NCBI GenBank assembly: GCA_004297765.1
Contig: SCTZ01000111.1
Location: forward strand, 1 to 64,000
Length of the DNA: 64,000 nucleotides
Direction of reading: 5' to 3'
Source of the DNA: Chloroflexota bacterium
GTDB taxonomy: Bacteria; Chloroflexota; Dehalococcoidia; FW602-bin16
The notes beneath the pieces are model-generated. The model was not told the DNA's origin, did no database searches, and saw only the letters and a list, made by a program, of their open reading frames with translations. The translations under genes and the position numbers were made by a program. Of this stretch, positions 2,435 to 53,506 are shown in pieces. How positions within the stretch are numbered: the stretch's first letter is position 1; every line of letters begins with the position of its first letter.

Positions 2435-2554
2435 ATGAACATTGTCGAGCGTGGCAGAGCCTTTGTCCAGGCCCCCCGTGAACTAGCTAGCGGTTCTGCC
2501 GGGGACTGGCGATGCTGCTCGAAGTACGGAGAAACGGACACTTGCAGACGATGA
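2435..2554 (+). CDS. Candidate 39-aa Cys-containing precursor peptide for the adjacent radical SAM enzyme
   Basis: An ATG at 2435 opens a 39-codon frame ending TGA at 2552-2554. The product begins MNIVERGRAFVQAPRELAS and ends with a Gly/Ser-rich hinge and a core-like tail, GDWRCCSKYGETDTCRR (Trp25, Cys27, Cys28, Cys37). The TGA overlaps an in-frame ATG of the radical SAM gene at 2551 (ATGA), the arrangement expected of a coupled precursor/maturase pair. An AGGA lies upstream but only about 3 nt from the ATG, so the ribosome site is weak. If the enzyme starts at 2512 instead, the two frames overlap by 43 nt. I recall short CbpA-type precursors beside CbpB-type radical SAM maturases, but cannot confirm membership. 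This could be a chance frame. Confidence 0.42.
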   Translation: MNIVERGRAFVQAPRELASGSAGDWRCCSKYGETDTCRR

Positions 2555-5004
2555 TACGCCAATTGATGATCGTTCCGTCGCTGGCCTGTCCTGCAGGGTG
2601 CTCCTACTGCTTCGGACCGCACGATGGCGGGCCGACCATGCGCCTGGAAACGATTGACGCGATCGTTCGCTGGCAGAGCGCTTTTGACGGGGCCGACAAA
2701 CTGGATGTAACGTTCCACGGTGGTGAGCCGTTGGTCGCGGGGGCGGCGTTCTATCGTGCCGCGCTACGGCGTTTGCGCCGGGACCTGGCCTCGCGCCGCG
2801 TGCGCTTTTCACTGCAAAGCAACCTGTGGCTTCTCGACGACGAGTTGTGTGAGATATTCCAGGAGCACGGCGTTTCCATCGGCACCAGCCTCGACGGTCC
2901 CGAGCGCGTCAAAGACCCTCAGCGGGGCCAGGGATACTTCCGGCGAACCATGGCAGGGATCGAACGGGCGCGCCGCCGCGGCCTGTCAGTCGGCTGCATC
3001 TGCACCTTCACTTCTCGAACGGCCCCCTACGCTGAAGAGGTGTTTGACTTCTTTGCGCGGGAGGGACTCGGCTTCACGATCCACGCGGCGCTACCGTCGT
3101 TGCGCTACGGGCAAATCGGCGACTGGGCGCTTACGCCCGAGGCACATGGTGAGCTGCTGGTAGGAATGCTCGATCGCTATCTGCCCAACCTTAGCAAGAT
3201 CCGCATCGGCAGCCTGGACTCTCTGTGCAGGAGCGTCTCGGCCGGCCAGGGGGGCATCTGCACCTTCGGGGACTGCCTGGGCCGCTATCTCGCCGTCGGT
3301 CCGGATGGCGAGATCTACCCGTGCCAGCGCTTCGCGGGGATGTCGGAGTACGAGTTGGGCGACGTTCATGACTGTCCCTCCCAGGAAGCGCTGGGGACGG
3401 CGCCCGTCTGGCGGACCTTTGAGGAGCGACAGCGGCGTATCGCAGAGGAGTGCGGCGATTGCCCGAGCTTGGGCTTTTGCCGAGGCGGCTGCCCTTATAA
3501 TACACTCGCCGCCAACGGCGGCAGCTTTGACTTCACGTTGCGCGACCCGCATTGTGCTGCCTACCGGCGCGTCTTTACCCACATTACCGACCGAGCACTC
3601 GAGGAAGTCTTCTCCGAAGAGAATATGAAGGCGGTAGTGGCCGAGATCGACAACGAGGCCGGCATGCTGCGTCGTGGGCGGTTGGTCACGCTCATGCGCG
3701 GCGGCCCCCACCCGTACGAGACGGCCCAACACGCTCGTCAAACATTGATGGTGGTCGCGCTGGCGGCGGCCAACTCGGCAGAAGAGGCCGCACGCAAGCT
3801 CCAGTCCGCCGGCGTCGTGAGCAACCGCCAGCTTGACGAAGCCGCCTTGCGGTCGTTGCATTGGAGGCTGACGGAGCCTGCCACCGGACTGAACAACCTC
3901 TACCTGCACGTGACCTTCGCCTGTCCGTTGTGCTGCACGCACTGCTACGCTCGCGCTGGCACGGAGCGCAAGGGCACGTTGGCGGTTGCCGATATCGCTC
4001 GGGTTTGTCGGGAGGCCGTTGAGCTGGGCTTCCGCCACGCGGTGATCACCGGGGGCGAGCCACTCGTGCACCCACAGCGCGACGCGCTCCTCGACACGCT
4101 CGCCGGGCTGCGCCGCGAGGTGAAGCCATTACTGACGGTGATGCGCACTAGCCTCGCGTTACACGTGGACAACGATGTGCTTCACCAAATTGGCTATGGC
4201 ACCGACGAGGTGGTAGTCAGCGTGGACGGCGACCGGGCCACGCACGATGCCCGCCGAGGGACGGGCAGCTACGACCTCACGGTGGCTAACCTCCGGACGC
4301 TCATGGTGCTGGATCACAGCGCCGAGGTCTCGCTGGCGACGGTGCTACCAGCACACCTGGCAGCGGACGGGCCAGGGCAAGCAGTCCGGACGCTAGCGAA
4401 GGAGCTGGGCATCCGGCGGACACGATTTCGTCCGCTCCTTAGATTGGGTCGAGCGGCGGACGCGCAGTTCGACCTGACGCCCGAGAGCCTAAGGGCCCAC
4501 ATGCCTGTCCACGACCAACTCGCCCTCGGCTTCGGCCCCGTCGCCTCGTGCGGCATTGGGCAGAATCTATACGTGGAGCCAGACGGCTCGGCCTATCCGT
4601 GCTACGCCTGGCACGGCGAGGACTGGCTCTTGGGCAACCTCAACGGGATGGGGGGCTTGTCCAAGATCGTCACCTCCGATAGCTTCAGGGACCTCGGCAG
4701 ACACACGGTCAACAGCAACCAACAGTGCTGCCATTGCCCGTTGCGCTACCTATGTGGCGGGGCCTGTCGTGCGTGGAATCGGCCTGCAGAACAAGATCAG
4801 CCTGATCTGGACGCCGCACCGACGGATTGCTCGTCGCTGCACGCCCGCGCCCGGACGCTATTGATCGCAGCGCTGGAGCACGTCGGGGTGACCGTAGAGC
4901 GCTGGATCGATGCCGGACTGCCGCTGCCGGAGATGCCGCCCATAGTGAAGGAGCGGCGCGTTGGGCAGGACGTGGCGACCGTGAAGGCTGAGGAAGGAGG
5001 ATGA
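2512..5004 (+). CDS. Fused tandem radical SAM/SPASM peptide maturase-like protein
   Basis: An 830-aa protein with two complete radical SAM-SPASM units. Unit 1 has CPAGCSYC (Cys26, 30, 33 bind the SAM 4Fe-4S cluster), HGGEP near residue 70, and a Cys-rich SPASM domain at about 250-365 (CTFGDC ... YPCQ ... CGDC ... GFCRGGC). Unit 2 has ACPLCCTHC (Cys471, 475, 478), TGGEP, and a SPASM domain at about 680-790 (CGIGQ ... YPCYAW ... CCHC ... YLCGGAC). SPASM radical SAM enzymes modify ribosomal peptides or activate sulfatases. The precursor-like peptide next door favours the former. Start 2512 has GGGGA 6 nt upstream; ATG 2551 would leave the usual short stretch before the first Cys and overlap the peptide stop. 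The partner gene follows after 3 nt. Confidence 0.85.
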   Translation: MLLEVRRNGHLQTMIRQLMIVPSLACPAGCSYCFGPHDGGPTMRLETIDAIVRWQSAFDGADKLDVTFHGGEPLVAGAAFYRAALRRLRRDLASRRVRFSLQSNLWLLDDELCEIFQEHGVSIGTSLDGPERVKDPQRGQGYFRRTMAGIERARRRGLSVGCICTFTSRTAPYAEEVFDFFAREGLGFTIHAALPSLRYGQIGDWALTPEAHGELLVGMLDRYLPNLSKIRIGSLDSLCRSVSAGQGGICTFGDCLGRYLAVGPDGEIYPCQRFAGMSEYELGDVHDCPSQEALGTAPVWRTFEERQRRIAEECGDCPSLGFCRGGCPYNTLAANGGSFDFTLRDPHCAAYRRVFTHITDRALEEVFSEENMKAVVAEIDNEAGMLRRGRLVTLMRGGPHPYETAQHARQTLMVVALAAANSAEEAARKLQSAGVVSNRQLDEAALRSLHWRLTEPATGLNNLYLHVTFACPLCCTHCYARAGTERKGTLAVADIARVCREAVELGFRHAVITGGEPLVHPQRDALLDTLAGLRREVKPLLTVMRTSLALHVDNDVLHQIGYGTDEVVVSVDGDRATHDARRGTGSYDLTVANLRTLMVLDHSAEVSLATVLPAHLAADGPGQAVRTLAKELGIRRTRFRPLLRLGRAADAQFDLTPESLRAHMPVHDQLALGFGPVASCGIGQNLYVEPDGSAYPCYAWHGEDWLLGNLNGMGGLSKIVTSDSFRDLGRHTVNSNQQCCHCPLRYLCGGACRAWNRPAEQDQPDLDAAPTDCSSLHARARTLLIAALEHVGVTVERWIDAGLPLPEMPPIVKERRVGQDVATVKAEEGG

Positions 5005-5007
5005 GCG

Positions 5008-6468
5008 ATGCTGTTCTTCGGACCGCCCAACGTGGAGAAGATGGAGCAAAAAAGGGACGTCGCCGGGCTAATCAAGGCGCTACGATACAAGGCTGGTAGC
5101 AGTGCGCCTGAACATCTGCACCTACGCGGGAGAGCCGCCATGGCGCTAGGGCAGATCGGTGAAACGCGGGCCGTTGAGCCGTTGCTCGCTGTCTTGCGGG
5201 ACGATAATTCGGACGTGCGGGGGAGTGCTGCGGCGGCGCTGGGGAAGATCGGCGACGCGCGGGCCGTAGAGCCGCTCGTAGCTGCTTTGCGCAGCAACAG
5301 TTTGAACGTGCGCTCTAAGGCGACCGATGCGCTAGTGAAGATTGGCTCGCCCGCCGTAGAGCCGCTGACCGCTGCCTTGCGGGACGACGATTCGAACGTG
5401 CGCTGGATAGCCGCCGAGACGTTGTGGAAGATCGGAGACCAACTGGCCGTGGATCCTCTGGTCGCTGCCTTGCGGGACGATGATTCGGACGTGCGCTGGA
5501 TAGCCGCCGAGGCGCTGGGGAAGATCGGGGACCAACGGGTCGTAGAGCCGCTGGTCGCTGCCTTGCGGGACGGGAGTATGCGGGTCAGGAAAGGCGCCGC
5601 TAGCGCCCTCGATGCGCTGAGCTGGCGGCCAGGATTGGACGCAAGTGGAGCCTGGTACTGGGTGCTGAAAGAGCGCTGGGATCGCTGCGTCGAAATCGGC
5701 TCGTTGGCCGTAGAGCCTCTGGTCGCTGCCTTGCGGGACAACACTCCGGACGTGCGCAAGAGAGCCGCCAAAGCGCTGGGGCAGATCTGCGACGCACGGG
5801 CTGTGGAGCCACTGGTCACTGCTTTGCGGGATGGGGACAAGGGGGTCGGGAAAGGCGCCGCCAACGCCCTCAATGCGCTTGGCTGGCGGCCAGGACTGGA
5901 TGCAAGTGGAGCCTGGTACTGGGTGCTGAAAGAGCACTGGGATCGCTGCGTCGAAATCGGCTCGCCGGCCGTGGAGCCTCTGGGCGCTGCCTTGCGGGAC
6001 AACACTCCGGACGTGCGCGATAGAGCGGCCGAGGCGCTGGTAAAGATCGGCTCACCCGCAGTGGAGCCGCTGGTCGCTGCCTTGCGCGACAACGATTGGG
6101 ACGTGCGCTCAAGGGCCGCCAAGGCGCTGGGAATGATCGGGGACCATCGGGCCGTGGAGCCGCTGATCGCCGCCTTGCGGCACGACCGGAATGTGGGGGC
6201 TGCCGCCGAGGCGCTGGGGAAGATGGGCTCACCCGCAGTGAAGCCGCTGATCGCTGCCTTGTCGGACTTGGACTGGAACGTGCGATGGGGTGCCGCCAAG
6301 GCGCTAGTCGGCATGTTTCGCCGTGGCAACATGGACAACCGAGCGAAGAGAGAGATTGTTGTGATGCGAGGGACAATTGTCAAGGCGCACACGGATTACT
6401 ACGATTACAACGTGTGTGCGGGGTTTTGGCCCCCCCATGGGGACAGCGGCATTGGCGTGGAGTTCTGA
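5008..6468 (+). CDS. HEAT-like (PBS lyase type) repeat protein coupled to the radical SAM gene
   Basis: A 486-aa alpha-solenoid of about a dozen 31-residue HEAT-like repeats of the form VRxxAAxALGKIGDxRAVEPLVAALRD. Two insertions interrupt the array, each containing WRPGLDASGAWYWVLKE followed by WDRCVEIGS, at roughly residues 205-235 and 292-322. They are near copies at DNA level (5593-5772 and 5854-6033). Such scaffolds bind proteins or peptides, and some act as phycobilin lyases or chaperones. No bilin genes are present. The start lies 3 nt after the maturase stop and uses a GGAGG inside that gene's last codons, so the two are probably made together. A substrate-binding or scaffold role for the maturase is inference. 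Confidence 0.82.
   Translation: MLFFGPPNVEKMEQKRDVAGLIKALRYKAGSSAPEHLHLRGRAAMALGQIGETRAVEPLLAVLRDDNSDVRGSAAAALGKIGDARAVEPLVAALRSNSLNVRSKATDALVKIGSPAVEPLTAALRDDDSNVRWIAAETLWKIGDQLAVDPLVAALRDDDSDVRWIAAEALGKIGDQRVVEPLVAALRDGSMRVRKGAASALDALSWRPGLDASGAWYWVLKERWDRCVEIGSLAVEPLVAALRDNTPDVRKRAAKALGQICDARAVEPLVTALRDGDKGVGKGAANALNALGWRPGLDASGAWYWVLKEHWDRCVEIGSPAVEPLGAALRDNTPDVRDRAAEALVKIGSPAVEPLVAALRDNDWDVRSRAAKALGMIGDHRAVEPLIAALRHDRNVGAAAEALGKMGSPAVKPLIAALSDLDWNVRWGAAKALVGMFRRGNMDNRAKREIVVMRGTIVKAHTDYYDYNVCAGFWPPHGDSGIGVEF
5593..6033 (+). repeat. Internal duplication within the HEAT-repeat gene (two ~180-nt copies, 261-nt period)
   Basis: The segment at 5593-5772 recurs at 5854-6033 with most bases identical. 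Both encode the WRPGLDASGAWYW insertion plus one HEAT repeat (VEPLVAALRDNTPDVR). The 261-nt spacing is a multiple of three, so the duplication keeps frame. It looks like recent repeat-unit expansion by unequal recombination. Confidence 0.8.
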
Positions 6469-6581: not shown

Positions 6582-8351
6582 ATGATGGGCATTCTCTCGA
6601 AACTGTTCGGTAGATCGGAACGGAGCCTGGAGAAAAGAAGGGAGCCGGCGTCACGCCGCGAAGGCGACCTTCAGCCCACAGGTGCAAGGCCAAACATTGA
6701 GTCGAAATCGATGCTTGAGATCAGCTACGGCACGTCGACGCCAACAGAAAAAGTCCTGTGCGCCAACTGCGGAGCCAAGATCCTTCCGGCAACCGCCAAG
6801 AAGTACAAGGGACTATGTGCCCCGTGCGCCAGTGGCCACACCGGCTCAAGACGACCGGTCAGGACTGCCGTCAAAGAAGTGAAGTGCTCTCTGTGCGGCA
6901 AGTCTTTGAAAGCGATGGGCAATACACTTGGAGATTTCGGAGTATCCCCGACGGATCAGAGTGGAGGATGGGATCAATGGCTAGGGACGGCCTGTAATGC
7001 TTGCGGCAAAGTGTACTGTCCAGATTGCTGCAACGCGACGGGAGGTCCCTGCCCCATATGCGGCCAAGATGTCAAACCTGCAATGGCCGCGTTTCTGCCA
7101 AATGATTCCCACGAAGGACAGAATCCGAAACACGTCTCCACGGACGCAGTAGCCGCTAGGATTCTACTCGCCCATACTGGTGAGACCCTTGCATCGCAGG
7201 ACGTTAACGAGATTCTGAAGTACGCGTGGGTTGGAAAGTTGGCCCCCGACGTAAAGATCACGTCCCACCCCCTCACACCAAATGCATGGATAAGCGACGA
7301 GCAGTTCGCTATTGCGTGGACTATGTGGAAACAGATGCTTCAACACAAGAACGGTGAACATCCCTACTGGGATGATCATGAGATACATGCCTTTAGAGGG
7401 ACGATTGCGCGGACGGGGCAACGGTTCTACGCGGAGATCTACTACCTTGCCACAGGCGCGAGACCAAACATCAAGTCGAAATCGATCCTCCAGATCAGTT
7501 ACGGCACGTCGACGCCAACAGAAAAAGTCCCGTGCGCCAACTGCGGAGCCAAAATCCTTCCGGCAACCGCCAAGAAATACAAGGGACTATGTGCCCCGTG
7601 CGCTAGTGGCCACACTGAGGAGAAGGCAACTGTTCAGGCTAATAGACCATCGGACACGGGTGACCGCGAGGAGCCGAGGAAGGTGTCCTGCATTCAGTGT
7701 GGGGCGAGGATCCTCCCGAGCACTACCAAGAAGACCGGGGGCGTTTGTATGCCTTGTTACCACGGGACGCGAAAAGTGCGGGCGTCAACCTCCGGAGCTT
7801 TCGAGGCCGACACATCTCATGACAACGCCTTGGGAGAATCGCAACAGCGGGTCGAGAGTACTCCTACACGAAGCGTGAACGCTGAGAAGGCGGACAAAGG
7901 TTTTTCAGAGGACACACAAGCGGGCATACCACAACTAGGTGAAACGTCTATTGAATTCGCGGATGGCACCATCGTCGCTCTAGCTGATGTCAAGGAAATC
8001 ACCGCTCCTGAAATCGCAATAGGCCATCCCAGTAGTCCTCTTTTCAAGGCCATCAACTCAGTACTGAAACAAGGTCATGGTTATGTATATCTCTTGTATG
8101 TCACAAAGGCTGGACCCTCAACGACGATCATCCCTACGGTGGATCGTGCTGCTGCTGTCGAGCTGGCCGAGCGGATAAAGGATGCCAAAGCCGCAGCCAA
8201 TAGGCAGACATCAGATAGAGTGATTGTGGGCGAGTGCACACAGTGTCACCGTAAGCTTCGTGTTAGAGCACATGCCGTAAGAACAGGAATGATTCTCACC
8301 TGCAAATGCGGGCAACAAAACAGGGTTCGTCAGATCCGGGATAGTTCATAG
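6582..8351 (+). CDS. Multi zinc-ribbon protein of unknown function with a duplicated Cys4 module
   Basis: A 589-aa protein rich in CxxC pairs. After a basic N-terminus (MMGILSKLFGRSERSLEKRR) comes module A at about 33-87: CANCGAKILPATAKKYKG then LCAPC. Next is a central zinc-finger region (CSLCGKSLKAMG; CNACGKVYCPDCC; CPICGQ). Module A recurs almost unchanged at about 290-345. A relative, CIQCGARILPSTTKKTGG then CMPC, lies at about 367. The C-terminus carries a last Cys4 ribbon (CTQCHRKLRVRAH ... CKCGQQN). There are no membrane segments. The family is not recognised beyond zinc-ribbon modules. ATG 6582 and 6585 share the AAAGGA ribosome site. It follows the HEAT gene after 113 nt and probably belongs to the same unit. 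Confidence 0.75.
   Translation: MMGILSKLFGRSERSLEKRREPASRREGDLQPTGARPNIESKSMLEISYGTSTPTEKVLCANCGAKILPATAKKYKGLCAPCASGHTGSRRPVRTAVKEVKCSLCGKSLKAMGNTLGDFGVSPTDQSGGWDQWLGTACNACGKVYCPDCCNATGGPCPICGQDVKPAMAAFLPNDSHEGQNPKHVSTDAVAARILLAHTGETLASQDVNEILKYAWVGKLAPDVKITSHPLTPNAWISDEQFAIAWTMWKQMLQHKNGEHPYWDDHEIHAFRGTIARTGQRFYAEIYYLATGARPNIKSKSILQISYGTSTPTEKVPCANCGAKILPATAKKYKGLCAPCASGHTEEKATVQANRPSDTGDREEPRKVSCIQCGARILPSTTKKTGGVCMPCYHGTRKVRASTSGAFEADTSHDNALGESQQRVESTPTRSVNAEKADKGFSEDTQAGIPQLGETSIEFADGTIVALADVKEITAPEIAIGHPSSPLFKAINSVLKQGHGYVYLLYVTKAGPSTTIIPTVDRAAAVELAERIKDAKAAANRQTSDRVIVGECTQCHRKLRVRAHAVRTGMILTCKCGQQNRVRQIRDSS
6677..7616 (+). repeat. In-frame duplicated zinc-ribbon segment (copies 6677-6842 and 7451-7616)
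   Basis: The 166-nt segment starting 6677 is repeated at 7451 with an offset of exactly 774 nt. By eye more than 90% of bases match. Both encode GTSTPTEKVxCANCGAKILP and KKYKGLCAPC. Such similarity inside one gene indicates recent duplication or gene conversion. Confidence 0.85.
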
Positions 8352-8529
8352 GATGACGATGAGCATCTTGGAAGCTAACCTGCCTTCAGGTGGTCCGTCG
8401 CCGCCAACCTATGGCGTTACGGTGCTACCCCTGGAGATGCGCCCCGCGCCAGCGCTGACGGCTATTGGCCCATCAACCGTACAGAGAACGCCTGCCTTGG
8501 CGGCAGGTGGACGCAGCGGAGGTTCTACC

Positions 8530-9273
8530 ATGAACTACCTTCGGCGGCTAATCGGACGTAAGAATAAAGACGGCGACCCTGGGACCGTTGGGCATACCCA
8601 ACGGCATGAGTCAAGTCTGGGAGCCACGGCCTCCGATAAGGCGCCTGGCAGGAGTCCACGACCAGCAGGGGAGATGGTAGAAAGCGGCTTGCCGCCCGAT
8701 GCGACGGACAATTCGGAAGCGATCCTCCGCACGAAATACAAGGTAAGCTTAGAGGTATTCGCTAAACAGTTAAAGCGTTGTGATGAAGCGATGACTGTCG
8801 AAGCTGTGGGATCCTTTGAGGTGGTTGGGCTTCTAGCCAGCTACAACGAGTTTTGGGAAAGACTCATCGCACTTCAGCAGGATGCCGACGCGGAGACTGT
8901 AGAGCATCTCAAGCACAAGACCGCTGAGCTGGCCTCCGATTGGGACGCACTTTCTGTTCGCCTCGATAACGTAGAACCCGCAATCTCCTGCAATGACAGA
9001 GGTGCCGAGTTCTTCGGAAAGGGACAGCATGATAGGGCAATAGCGGAGTACACCAAGTCCATTAGCCTACAGCCCAAGTACGCCCATGCGTATATGAACC
9101 GTGGGTCGGCCTGGGCCGAGAGAAGGGAGTACGACAAGGCAATAGCCGACTACGTGGAATGGCTGGCCAAGGCGATTGAAAAAGATGCAACATATCGAGA
9201 GTCCGCCAAGAACGAACCGGATTTTGTCTCCCTGCACGCCGATTCTCGATTTCTCACCCTGTTGGGACTCTAG
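8530..9273 (+). CDS. TPR-repeat protein
   Basis: About 247 aa from ATG 8530. The C-terminal half holds tetratricopeptide repeats (AEFFGKGQHDRAIAEYTKSI, then YAHAYMNRGSAWAERREYDK and IADYVEWLAKAIEKD). The middle is helical and charged. The N-terminus (MNYLRRLIGRKNKDGD) resembles that of the preceding zinc-ribbon protein, suggesting a shared membrane or partner contact. Start 8530 is chosen because GGAGG lies 7 nt upstream. The frame is open from ATG 8353, one base after the previous stop, which would add a Pro-rich 59-residue extension that looks non-coding. TPRs mediate protein contacts; the partner is not known. It appears to end the accessory operon. Confidence 0.72.
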   Translation: MNYLRRLIGRKNKDGDPGTVGHTQRHESSLGATASDKAPGRSPRPAGEMVESGLPPDATDNSEAILRTKYKVSLEVFAKQLKRCDEAMTVEAVGSFEVVGLLASYNEFWERLIALQQDADAETVEHLKHKTAELASDWDALSVRLDNVEPAISCNDRGAEFFGKGQHDRAIAEYTKSISLQPKYAHAYMNRGSAWAERREYDKAIADYVEWLAKAIEKDATYRESAKNEPDFVSLHADSRFLTLLGL

Positions 9274-52141: not shown

Positions 52142-53506
52142 ATGGCCTTGTCGGGTATTGAGATCTACAAGCATCTCCCCAAGACAAACTGCAAGAAGTG
52201 CGGCTTTCCCACCTGCCTGGCTTTCGCCATGAAGCTGGCGCAGAAAGGCATCGAGCTCTCGGCGTGTCCGGACCTGTCCGACGCCGCCAAACAGGCGCTC
52301 GAGGCCGCCTCTCGTCCACCTATTCGTCTGGTCACCATCGGCAACAACGACAAGAAGCTAGCCGTTGGTAACGAGACCGTGATGTTCCGCCATGAGAAGA
52401 CGTTCATCAATCCGCCCGGACTCCTGCTGCGCGTGAAGGACACCGAGTCCGCGAACGACATCGCGGAGAAAGCCAAGAGCGTCCAGGATTACGCGGTTGA
52501 GCGCGTGGGCTTCACGCTCACCATGAACGGCGTCGCGGTCGACAACGCCTCGGGCGACAAAGCGACCTTCGTGAAGGCCGTCGAAATCGTCTCCGAGCAC
52601 ACTGATCGTCCTCTGGTCCTCATGGCTAAGGATCCCGCCATCATGGAAGCGGCTCTCGAGAAGGTCGCGACCAGCACACCGTTGATTTACGCGGCGACCA
52701 AAGACAACGCGGCGGCGATGGCTCAGTTGGCGCTGAAGTACAAGTGCCCGCTGGCCGTCTACGATGCGGGCGGACTCGAGGAGCTGGCCGGTCTGGCGCA
52801 GGAAGTCGCCAATGCGGGTGTCGAGGACATCGTGCTCGATCCCGGCGCGCGCGACTTCCGCGGCTCGCTCATCAACCTGACCCAGATCCGCAAGTTGGCC
52901 CTCAAGAAGGGCTTCAAGGACCTGGGCTACCCTATTATCACCTTCCCGGGTGAGCAGGCGGCGGATCGCGCCGAGGAAGTGGCCCTGGCCGCTCAGCATA
53001 TCGCTAAGTACGCCGGGGTCATCGTTCTCGACACCTTCGATCCCGCCGTGGTCTACCCGCTGGTGACCCTGCGTCTCAACATCTACACCGACCCGCAGAA
53101 GCCCATCCAGATGCAGCCGGGCCTTTACGAAGTGGCTGGTAATCCCAAGGCGGACAGCCCGCTCTTCGTCACGACCAATTTCTCTCTCACCTACTTCTCG
53201 GTGGTGGGCGAGATCGACGGCAGCGGCGTCGCCTCCTGGCTGGTTCTTCCCGACGCCGAGGGACTGTCTGTGCTAACTGCGTGGGCCGCCGGCAAATTCG
53301 ACGGCGAGCGCATCGGCAAGGCTATCAAGGCCTCGGGCGTGGCTGACAAGATCAGCCACAAGAAGGTCATTATCCCCGGCCACGTCGCGGTGCTCCGCGG
53401 CGAGATCGAGGATGAGCTCCCGGGTTGGGAAGTCATAGTCGGTCCCAAGGACGCCGTGGACATCCCAGGCTTCCTGAAGAAGATCTGGACGCTAACGCCG
53501 GCGTAG
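52142..53506 (+). CDS. acsC: Corrinoid iron-sulfur protein large subunit (gamma subunit)
   Basis: A 454-aa subunit. The N-terminal 4Fe-4S domain has Cys17, Cys20, Cys25 and Cys42 (TNCKKCGFPTCLAFAMKLAQ). A TIM barrel follows, and a C-terminal corrinoid-binding domain begins near residue 330 (SPLFVTTNFSLTYFSVVGEI; WLVLPDAEGLSVLTAWAAGK; VIIPGHVAVLRGEIEDELPG). The cobalt centre accepts the methyl group from AcsE and delivers it to ACS. It starts 48 nt after acsD with AAAGGAGA upstream. Confidence 0.96.
   Translation: MALSGIEIYKHLPKTNCKKCGFPTCLAFAMKLAQKGIELSACPDLSDAAKQALEAASRPPIRLVTIGNNDKKLAVGNETVMFRHEKTFINPPGLLLRVKDTESANDIAEKAKSVQDYAVERVGFTLTMNGVAVDNASGDKATFVKAVEIVSEHTDRPLVLMAKDPAIMEAALEKVATSTPLIYAATKDNAAAMAQLALKYKCPLAVYDAGGLEELAGLAQEVANAGVEDIVLDPGARDFRGSLINLTQIRKLALKKGFKDLGYPIITFPGEQAADRAEEVALAAQHIAKYAGVIVLDTFDPAVVYPLVTLRLNIYTDPQKPIQMQPGLYEVAGNPKADSPLFVTTNFSLTYFSVVGEIDGSGVASWLVLPDAEGLSVLTAWAAGKFDGERIGKAIKASGVADKISHKKVIIPGHVAVLRGEIEDELPGWEVIVGPKDAVDIPGFLKKIWTLTPA

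Follow-up and report, generated by a model that had tools for sequence, protein, structure and literature searches.

A double radical SAM/SPASM enzyme and an adjoining HEAT-repeat protein with a conserved C-terminal tail in a Chloroflexota genome: a candidate protein-tail modification system

Most SPASM enzymes have short precursor peptides as substrates. The family TIGR04083 (rSAM_pep_methan; 'TIGR04083 family peptide-modifying radical SAM enzyme' of NCBIfam) carries the model label hypoth_equivalog and a name from which no substrate can be read; in the control set it is matched by Methanosarcina acetivorans. No paper naming TIGR04083 or Mhun_1560 was found in the open-licence literature. TIGR04081 was considered as a target peptide of the TIGR04083 enzymes and set aside, since it is listed as selenobacteriocin in a 2026 review.

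Triceptide-forming SPASM enzymes link an aromatic residue at position i, His included, to the C-beta of residue i+2, with Asp among the partners (PMC11002830). PapB and QhpD form Cys-Asp thioethers, the substrate of QhpD being a protein subunit (PMC8172795). The radical SAM clusters 59 and 115, characterized by an Asp-Cys motif, have short precursor peptides as substrates (PMC9062424). In CbpA/CbpB (TIGR04163), a SPASM enzyme is likewise peptide-modifying.

The double enzyme and its distribution

The window, the whole stretch of 64,000 nucleotides that was analysed, contains a gene of an enzyme with two tandem units:

2551–5004, + strand: double radical SAM/SPASM enzyme, 817 aa (ORF, family profiles, AlphaFold model, fused homologs)
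2563–3645, + strand: N-terminal unit, TIGR04083 radical SAM/SPASM (2.8e-141, 470.7 bits)
3889–4830, + strand: C-terminal unit, second radical SAM/SPASM domain (CPLCCTHC and its own SPASM Cys set)

The union of two complete radical SAM/SPASM units within one polypeptide, reported in an earlier note made from the sequence alone, is a conserved architecture: the chain contains two CxxxCxxC radical SAM motifs, CPAGCSYC at residues 13–20 and CPLCCTHC at 458–465, Pfam Radical_SAM and SPASM each match two stretches, Cys of the SPASM auxiliary cluster are present in both units, and fused homologs exist. Among the SPASM models, that of TIGR04083 assigns the N-terminal half to its family above the cut-off of 300 bits, over model positions 2–359 of 376, and the genome-wide profile search places the TIGR04083 match at the same site. 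The unit is thus a member of the family by score and differs in being fused here to a further radical SAM/SPASM unit. For the C-terminal half, the matches to several SPASM families all stayed below the cut-offs. The AlphaFold model of the enzyme (mean pLDDT 82.9) has anSMEcpe (4k36, E 6.4e-17) as its best structural match, followed by other SPASM enzymes, including ChlB.

The similarity of the enzyme to the triceptide-forming enzymes (3-CyFE: OscB/GrrM, XncB, FxsB/MscB, YxdB, HaaB, YhhB) is weak, and the family cut-offs are missed for GrrM (106.5 of 310 bits), FxsB (107.1 of 370), YhhB (126.8 of 445) and AmcB (129.8 of 425), as well as for QhpD (120.4 of 453) and PapB (160.5 of 340). The link to CbpA/CbpB-type pairs, which the note had raised, is not supported: the N-terminal half reaches 150.2 bits with CbpB TIGR04163 (cut-off 375), against 470.7 bits with TIGR04083, and no CbpA-like peptide was found. 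The only PADLOC matches, to radical SAM (viperin) and to HEAT, were weak; nothing marks the cassette as a defence system.

The set of TIGR04083 genomes comprises 17 genomes from two phyla, Chloroflexota and Bacillota. At E ≤ 1e-70, the family was found in 5 of the 400 sampled Chloroflexota genomes, and further ones were obtained in targeted classes; four TIGR04083 genomes belong to the phylum of Peptococcaceae MAGs (Bacillota), with G1136 just under the cut-off. The enzyme is absent from the 99 nearest genomes, all of which are no closer than class. The double enzyme is encoded in the genomes G000, G252, G298, G773 and G855 and in G1136 (Bacillota), while in G699 both halves are present and the first ORF is interrupted. 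The N-terminal half only was found in nine genomes besides G954, and H-x-D motifs are retained in the tails (described below) of these nine. A separate copy of the C-terminal half was absent from the ten single-unit genomes searched, and its homologs at E ≤ 1e-20 were fused enzymes only (13 genomes searched). The tree of the N-terminal half requires three changes for the double form, which would agree with the second unit having been lost more than once. The single enzyme of G860 ends in PSVSD, like the double enzyme of G855, and looks, judging by sequence, as if it were the product of an internal deletion. Searches of plasmids and viral contigs gave no SPASM relatives other than distant ones.

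Elsewhere in the window, the product of positions 52142–53506 resembles, by eye, the corrinoid iron-sulfur protein of the acetyl-CoA pathway. Such a protein would be in keeping with an anaerobic host, as suits radical enzymes sensitive to oxygen.

The short ORF upstream of the enzyme

According to the earlier note, the locus is a RiPP-like cassette with a Cys-containing peptide encoded directly before the enzyme:

2435–2554, + strand: 39-aa ORF proposed earlier as precursor; probably no gene (no family match, no counterpart, chance rate)

The coordinates of both frames and the TGA/ATG overlap were confirmed. The ORF (MNIVERGRAFVQAPRELASGSAGDWRCCSKYGETDTCRR) forms the 3' part of a longer ORF, which starts at position 2396 and has 52 codons, and its TGA overlaps the ATG at 2551. 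Its existence, the ATGA overlap with the enzyme and the three Cys that it carries would agree with a role as RiPP precursor, its Cys/Trp being modified by the double enzyme, a reading that is very improbable in view of its lack of counterparts at homologous loci, the lack of a family match, the rate at which such frames arise by chance and the better-supported partner that the enzyme has in the HEAT protein described below. ORFs of at least 39 codons end at 55 of the 408 ATGA sites of the window (13.5%), which bears out the reservation of the note that the peptide could be chance. No NCBIfam match and no Pfam match was found for the peptide. Nor is the frame conserved: no similar ORF was found upstream of the enzyme homologs examined. 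In G252, G342 and G954, the upstream gene stops 18–27 nt before the aligned enzyme start, and in G298 the neighbouring gene is divergent. A possible alternative start of the enzyme is ATG 2512, which is preceded by a better ribosome site (GGGGA-like); with this start, the argument from ATGA coupling would weaken.

Since the frame is unconserved upstream of orthologs and another gene family is clearly the candidate substrate, the outcomes that the note itself had named as refuting its reading, the 39-aa ORF was rejected as precursor with high confidence, and it probably represents chance. A small precursor ORF conserved beside the enzyme, the classical RiPP criterion, was not found. Of the cassette proposed in the note, what stands is an unusual double enzyme of the peptide-modifying type in a cassette of the maturation type; the 39-aa precursor is not supported, the HEAT family being the more probable partner.

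The HEAT-repeat neighbour and its tail

The gene of a HEAT-repeat protein begins 3 nt past the stop codon of the enzyme:

5008–6468, + strand: HEAT (PBS-lyase-like) repeat protein, 486 aa, proposed substrate/carrier (HEAT_2, HEAT_PBS; conserved neighbour)
6388–6465, + strand: proposed core, C-terminal tail HTDYYDYNVCAGFWPPHGDSGIGVEF (invariant H-x-D, DNA pattern)
6388–6396 and 6436–6444, + strand: H-x-D motifs of the tail
6415–6417, + strand: Cys codon of the tail
6448–6465, + strand: GIGVEF of the tail

The product matches Pfam HEAT_2 (1.3e-87, 288.6 bits) and HEAT_PBS (2.6e-52, 169.7 bits), both above the gathering scores. In 16 of the 17 TIGR04083 genomes, a HEAT or repeat-like protein is encoded whose C-terminus carries two to four H-x-D motifs, in most cases with G-I-G-V-[DE]-F after them; it adjoins the enzyme in 13 of the 17 and is located elsewhere in the genome in three (G298, G853 and G953), and no tail protein was found in G954, a MAG of 1.8 Mb. 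The HEAT bodies diverge, with 23–56% identity to the window protein, while the C-terminal ends agree, reading HTDYYDYNVCAGFWPPHGDSGIGVEF in the window, HRDEYPYGSHEDSGIGVDFPD in G859, HSDGSSCGGHDDNGGIGVDFPL in G252 and HMDHSEVFDEDPDLAEHEDYGIGVEL in G1062 (Bacillota), where the gene is located upstream of the enzyme. In the alignment of 19 proteins, H461, D463, H477 and D479 make up four of the seven invariant columns.

Within the tails, 46 of 56 His residues lie inside H-x-D (shuffle mean 7.2, maximum 18 in 20,000 shuffles), a statistic that is partly circular because the tail set was collected partly with the tail profile and partly beside the enzyme. Support independent of collection by the tail profile comes from the adjacent genes and from a DNA pattern searched in the 400 genomes. 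The pattern HxDxGIGV[DE]F occurs in one of the 400 Chloroflexota genomes, five of which have TIGR04083, namely in this genome at window positions 6436–6465; being strict, it misses variants such as G252 and so measures specificity, not sensitivity. Of eight genomes that lack the enzyme, three share a genus with positive ones; in all eight, the tail profile gave HEAT-repeat matches or nothing, and no tail was detected.

In G847, the enzyme ORF itself (L034, 8546–10228, minus strand) ends in CQVHTDEGIGVEFPT, a tail of the HEAT type; the linker is present and the second unit absent, which looks like the result of a deletion that fused the enzyme to the substrate tail. In G1136, a downstream protein of 316 aa ends in HIDETSYGACYFEWSSYQVAYEDDSHTD plus 18 residues; for this protein and two other H-x-D neighbours, no Pfam HEAT match was obtained. 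These two other neighbours (L073, 4553–5695 and 10247–11548, minus strand) carry H-x-D near their C-termini (MHVDHGDEDDHGD and LHVDLPE) and are not recognisable as HEAT proteins; the first of them (4553–5695) resembles its DUF2225-like neighbour.

Accordingly, the comparison of sequences indicates a strong association of the enzyme with a protein bearing an H-x-D tail. Gene adjacency is no proof of a substrate. We consider it likely, with a probability of about 0.68, that the locus encodes a protein-tail modification system with the HEAT protein as substrate.

The AF2 model of the HEAT protein (pLDDT 88) predicts the tail as a low-confidence hairpin with strands 462–465 and 477–480, so the conservation of H-x-D could reflect metal binding or structure. 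The tail would then be an unmodified hairpin, and the enzyme would modify another residue or another protein of the pathway. His, Asp and Cys are metal ligands, and the model pairs both H-x-D segments; nevertheless, this explanation is unlikely, as it does not account for the occurrence of the tail only with the enzyme, the G847 fusion and the appearance of Cys with the second unit.

Among the other neighbours, genes of AAA_28-type NTPases are located directly behind the HEAT genes in G252 (L017, 12669–13268 and 14857–15537) and G699 (L030, about 8060–8650); one copy matches Pfam AAA_28 with 1.6e-17, and these NTPases are a possible third component. In G847 (L034), the enzyme and the HEAT gene are separated by a gene in minus orientation that appears, by eye, TIR-domain-like. 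The upstream genes in L031, L034 and L036, all from one genus, resemble by eye those of glutamate formimidoyltransferase and imidazolonepropionase (histidine degradation), which probably reflects shared gene order. In the window, positions 6582–8351 encode a protein of 589 aa with an internally duplicated CxxC-rich segment (SYGTSTPTEKVxCANCGAKILPATAKKYKGLCAPCASGH) and no Pfam match.

The second unit, the tail cysteine and the proposed modification

A Cys between the H-x-D motifs of the tail was found in 7 of 7 double-enzyme genomes, the split G699 included, versus one of nine single-unit genomes (G342; G954 excluded), with an uncorrected Fisher p of 0.0014; this correlation is suggestive, because it comprises just two or three phylogenetically independent contrasts. 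A strict one-to-one rule, by which the second unit would equal Cys, was rejected, since it is broken by G342, where Cys occurs with a single-unit enzyme. In G855, the tail adjacent to the enzyme has no Cys, and a second HEAT protein with Cys is encoded elsewhere in the genome.

The low number of contrasts and the Cys of G342 would also agree with one unit alone being catalytic on the tail and the second serving as a docking or electron-transfer partner, the correlation with Cys reflecting shared ancestry. This is somewhat unlikely: the second unit of the window retains CxxxCxxC and the SPASM Cys set, and the contrast is visible inside one genus, where G855 retains both.

For the tail-modification reading, we infer a mechanism in which the HEAT solenoid would serve as recognition and carrier domain, in the role of a RiPP leader, and the core would be the C-terminal tail, which is flexible and has at least two H-x-D motifs. 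The TIGR04083 half would act on the H-x-D motifs; the second half, likewise radical SAM/SPASM, would modify the single Cys that lies between them, e.g., by forming a thioether; this assignment follows from the fit of H-x-D to triceptides and of a lone Cys beside Asp to PapB/QhpD. The i to i+2 spacing of aromatic-x-Asp suggests a His-to-Asp C-beta crosslink, perhaps a three-residue cyclophane. At the level of the motif, what triceptide-like enzymes require is present, namely an aromatic residue at i and a C-beta acceptor at i+2, invariant at two tail sites in the 19 proteins; the triceptide substrates are short precursor peptides, whereas here they would be repeat proteins of about 260–650 aa. 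QhpD is similar in having a protein rather than a short precursor as substrate, and the tails here also contain Cys and Asp; unlike the case of QhpD/PapB, they contain one Cys or none, and the candidate substrate is a HEAT protein. The Asp-Cys motif of clusters 59 and 115 is likewise seen in 6 of 10 tails from double-enzyme genomes.

No conserved protease/peptidase or exporter was noticed beside the enzyme, the neighbours differing among genomes, and the modified tail may consequently stay on the protein, where it would form an intracellular cross-linked or metal/redox-active element. The same lack of a conserved peptidase or exporter argues against release of the tail by cleavage as a RiPP natural product of the classical kind, with the HEAT solenoid as an oversized leader. 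The core-like C-terminal position, the hypervariability between the motifs and the two paralogous HEAT genes present at times (L017, L030) would agree with cleavage, which we nonetheless regard as fairly improbable. A retained tail would suggest, tentatively, an intracellular modification class in which dual radical SAM enzymes would introduce His-Asp (and Cys) crosslinks into the tails of HEAT scaffolds, the product being a permanent cross-linked or redox/metal site and not a secreted peptide. In the open-licence literature searched, no radical SAM enzyme acting on a HEAT-repeat protein was found described.

Searches for precursors restricted to short ORFs beside the enzyme can pick the wrong ORF. 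For the TIGR04083 enzymes, whose name in NCBIfam states no substrate, the HEAT protein provides a candidate. In both Chloroflexota and Bacillota, the evidence makes the flexible tail of a large protein of helical repeats the likely target, and the two tandem units of the enzyme would correspond to two types of residue.
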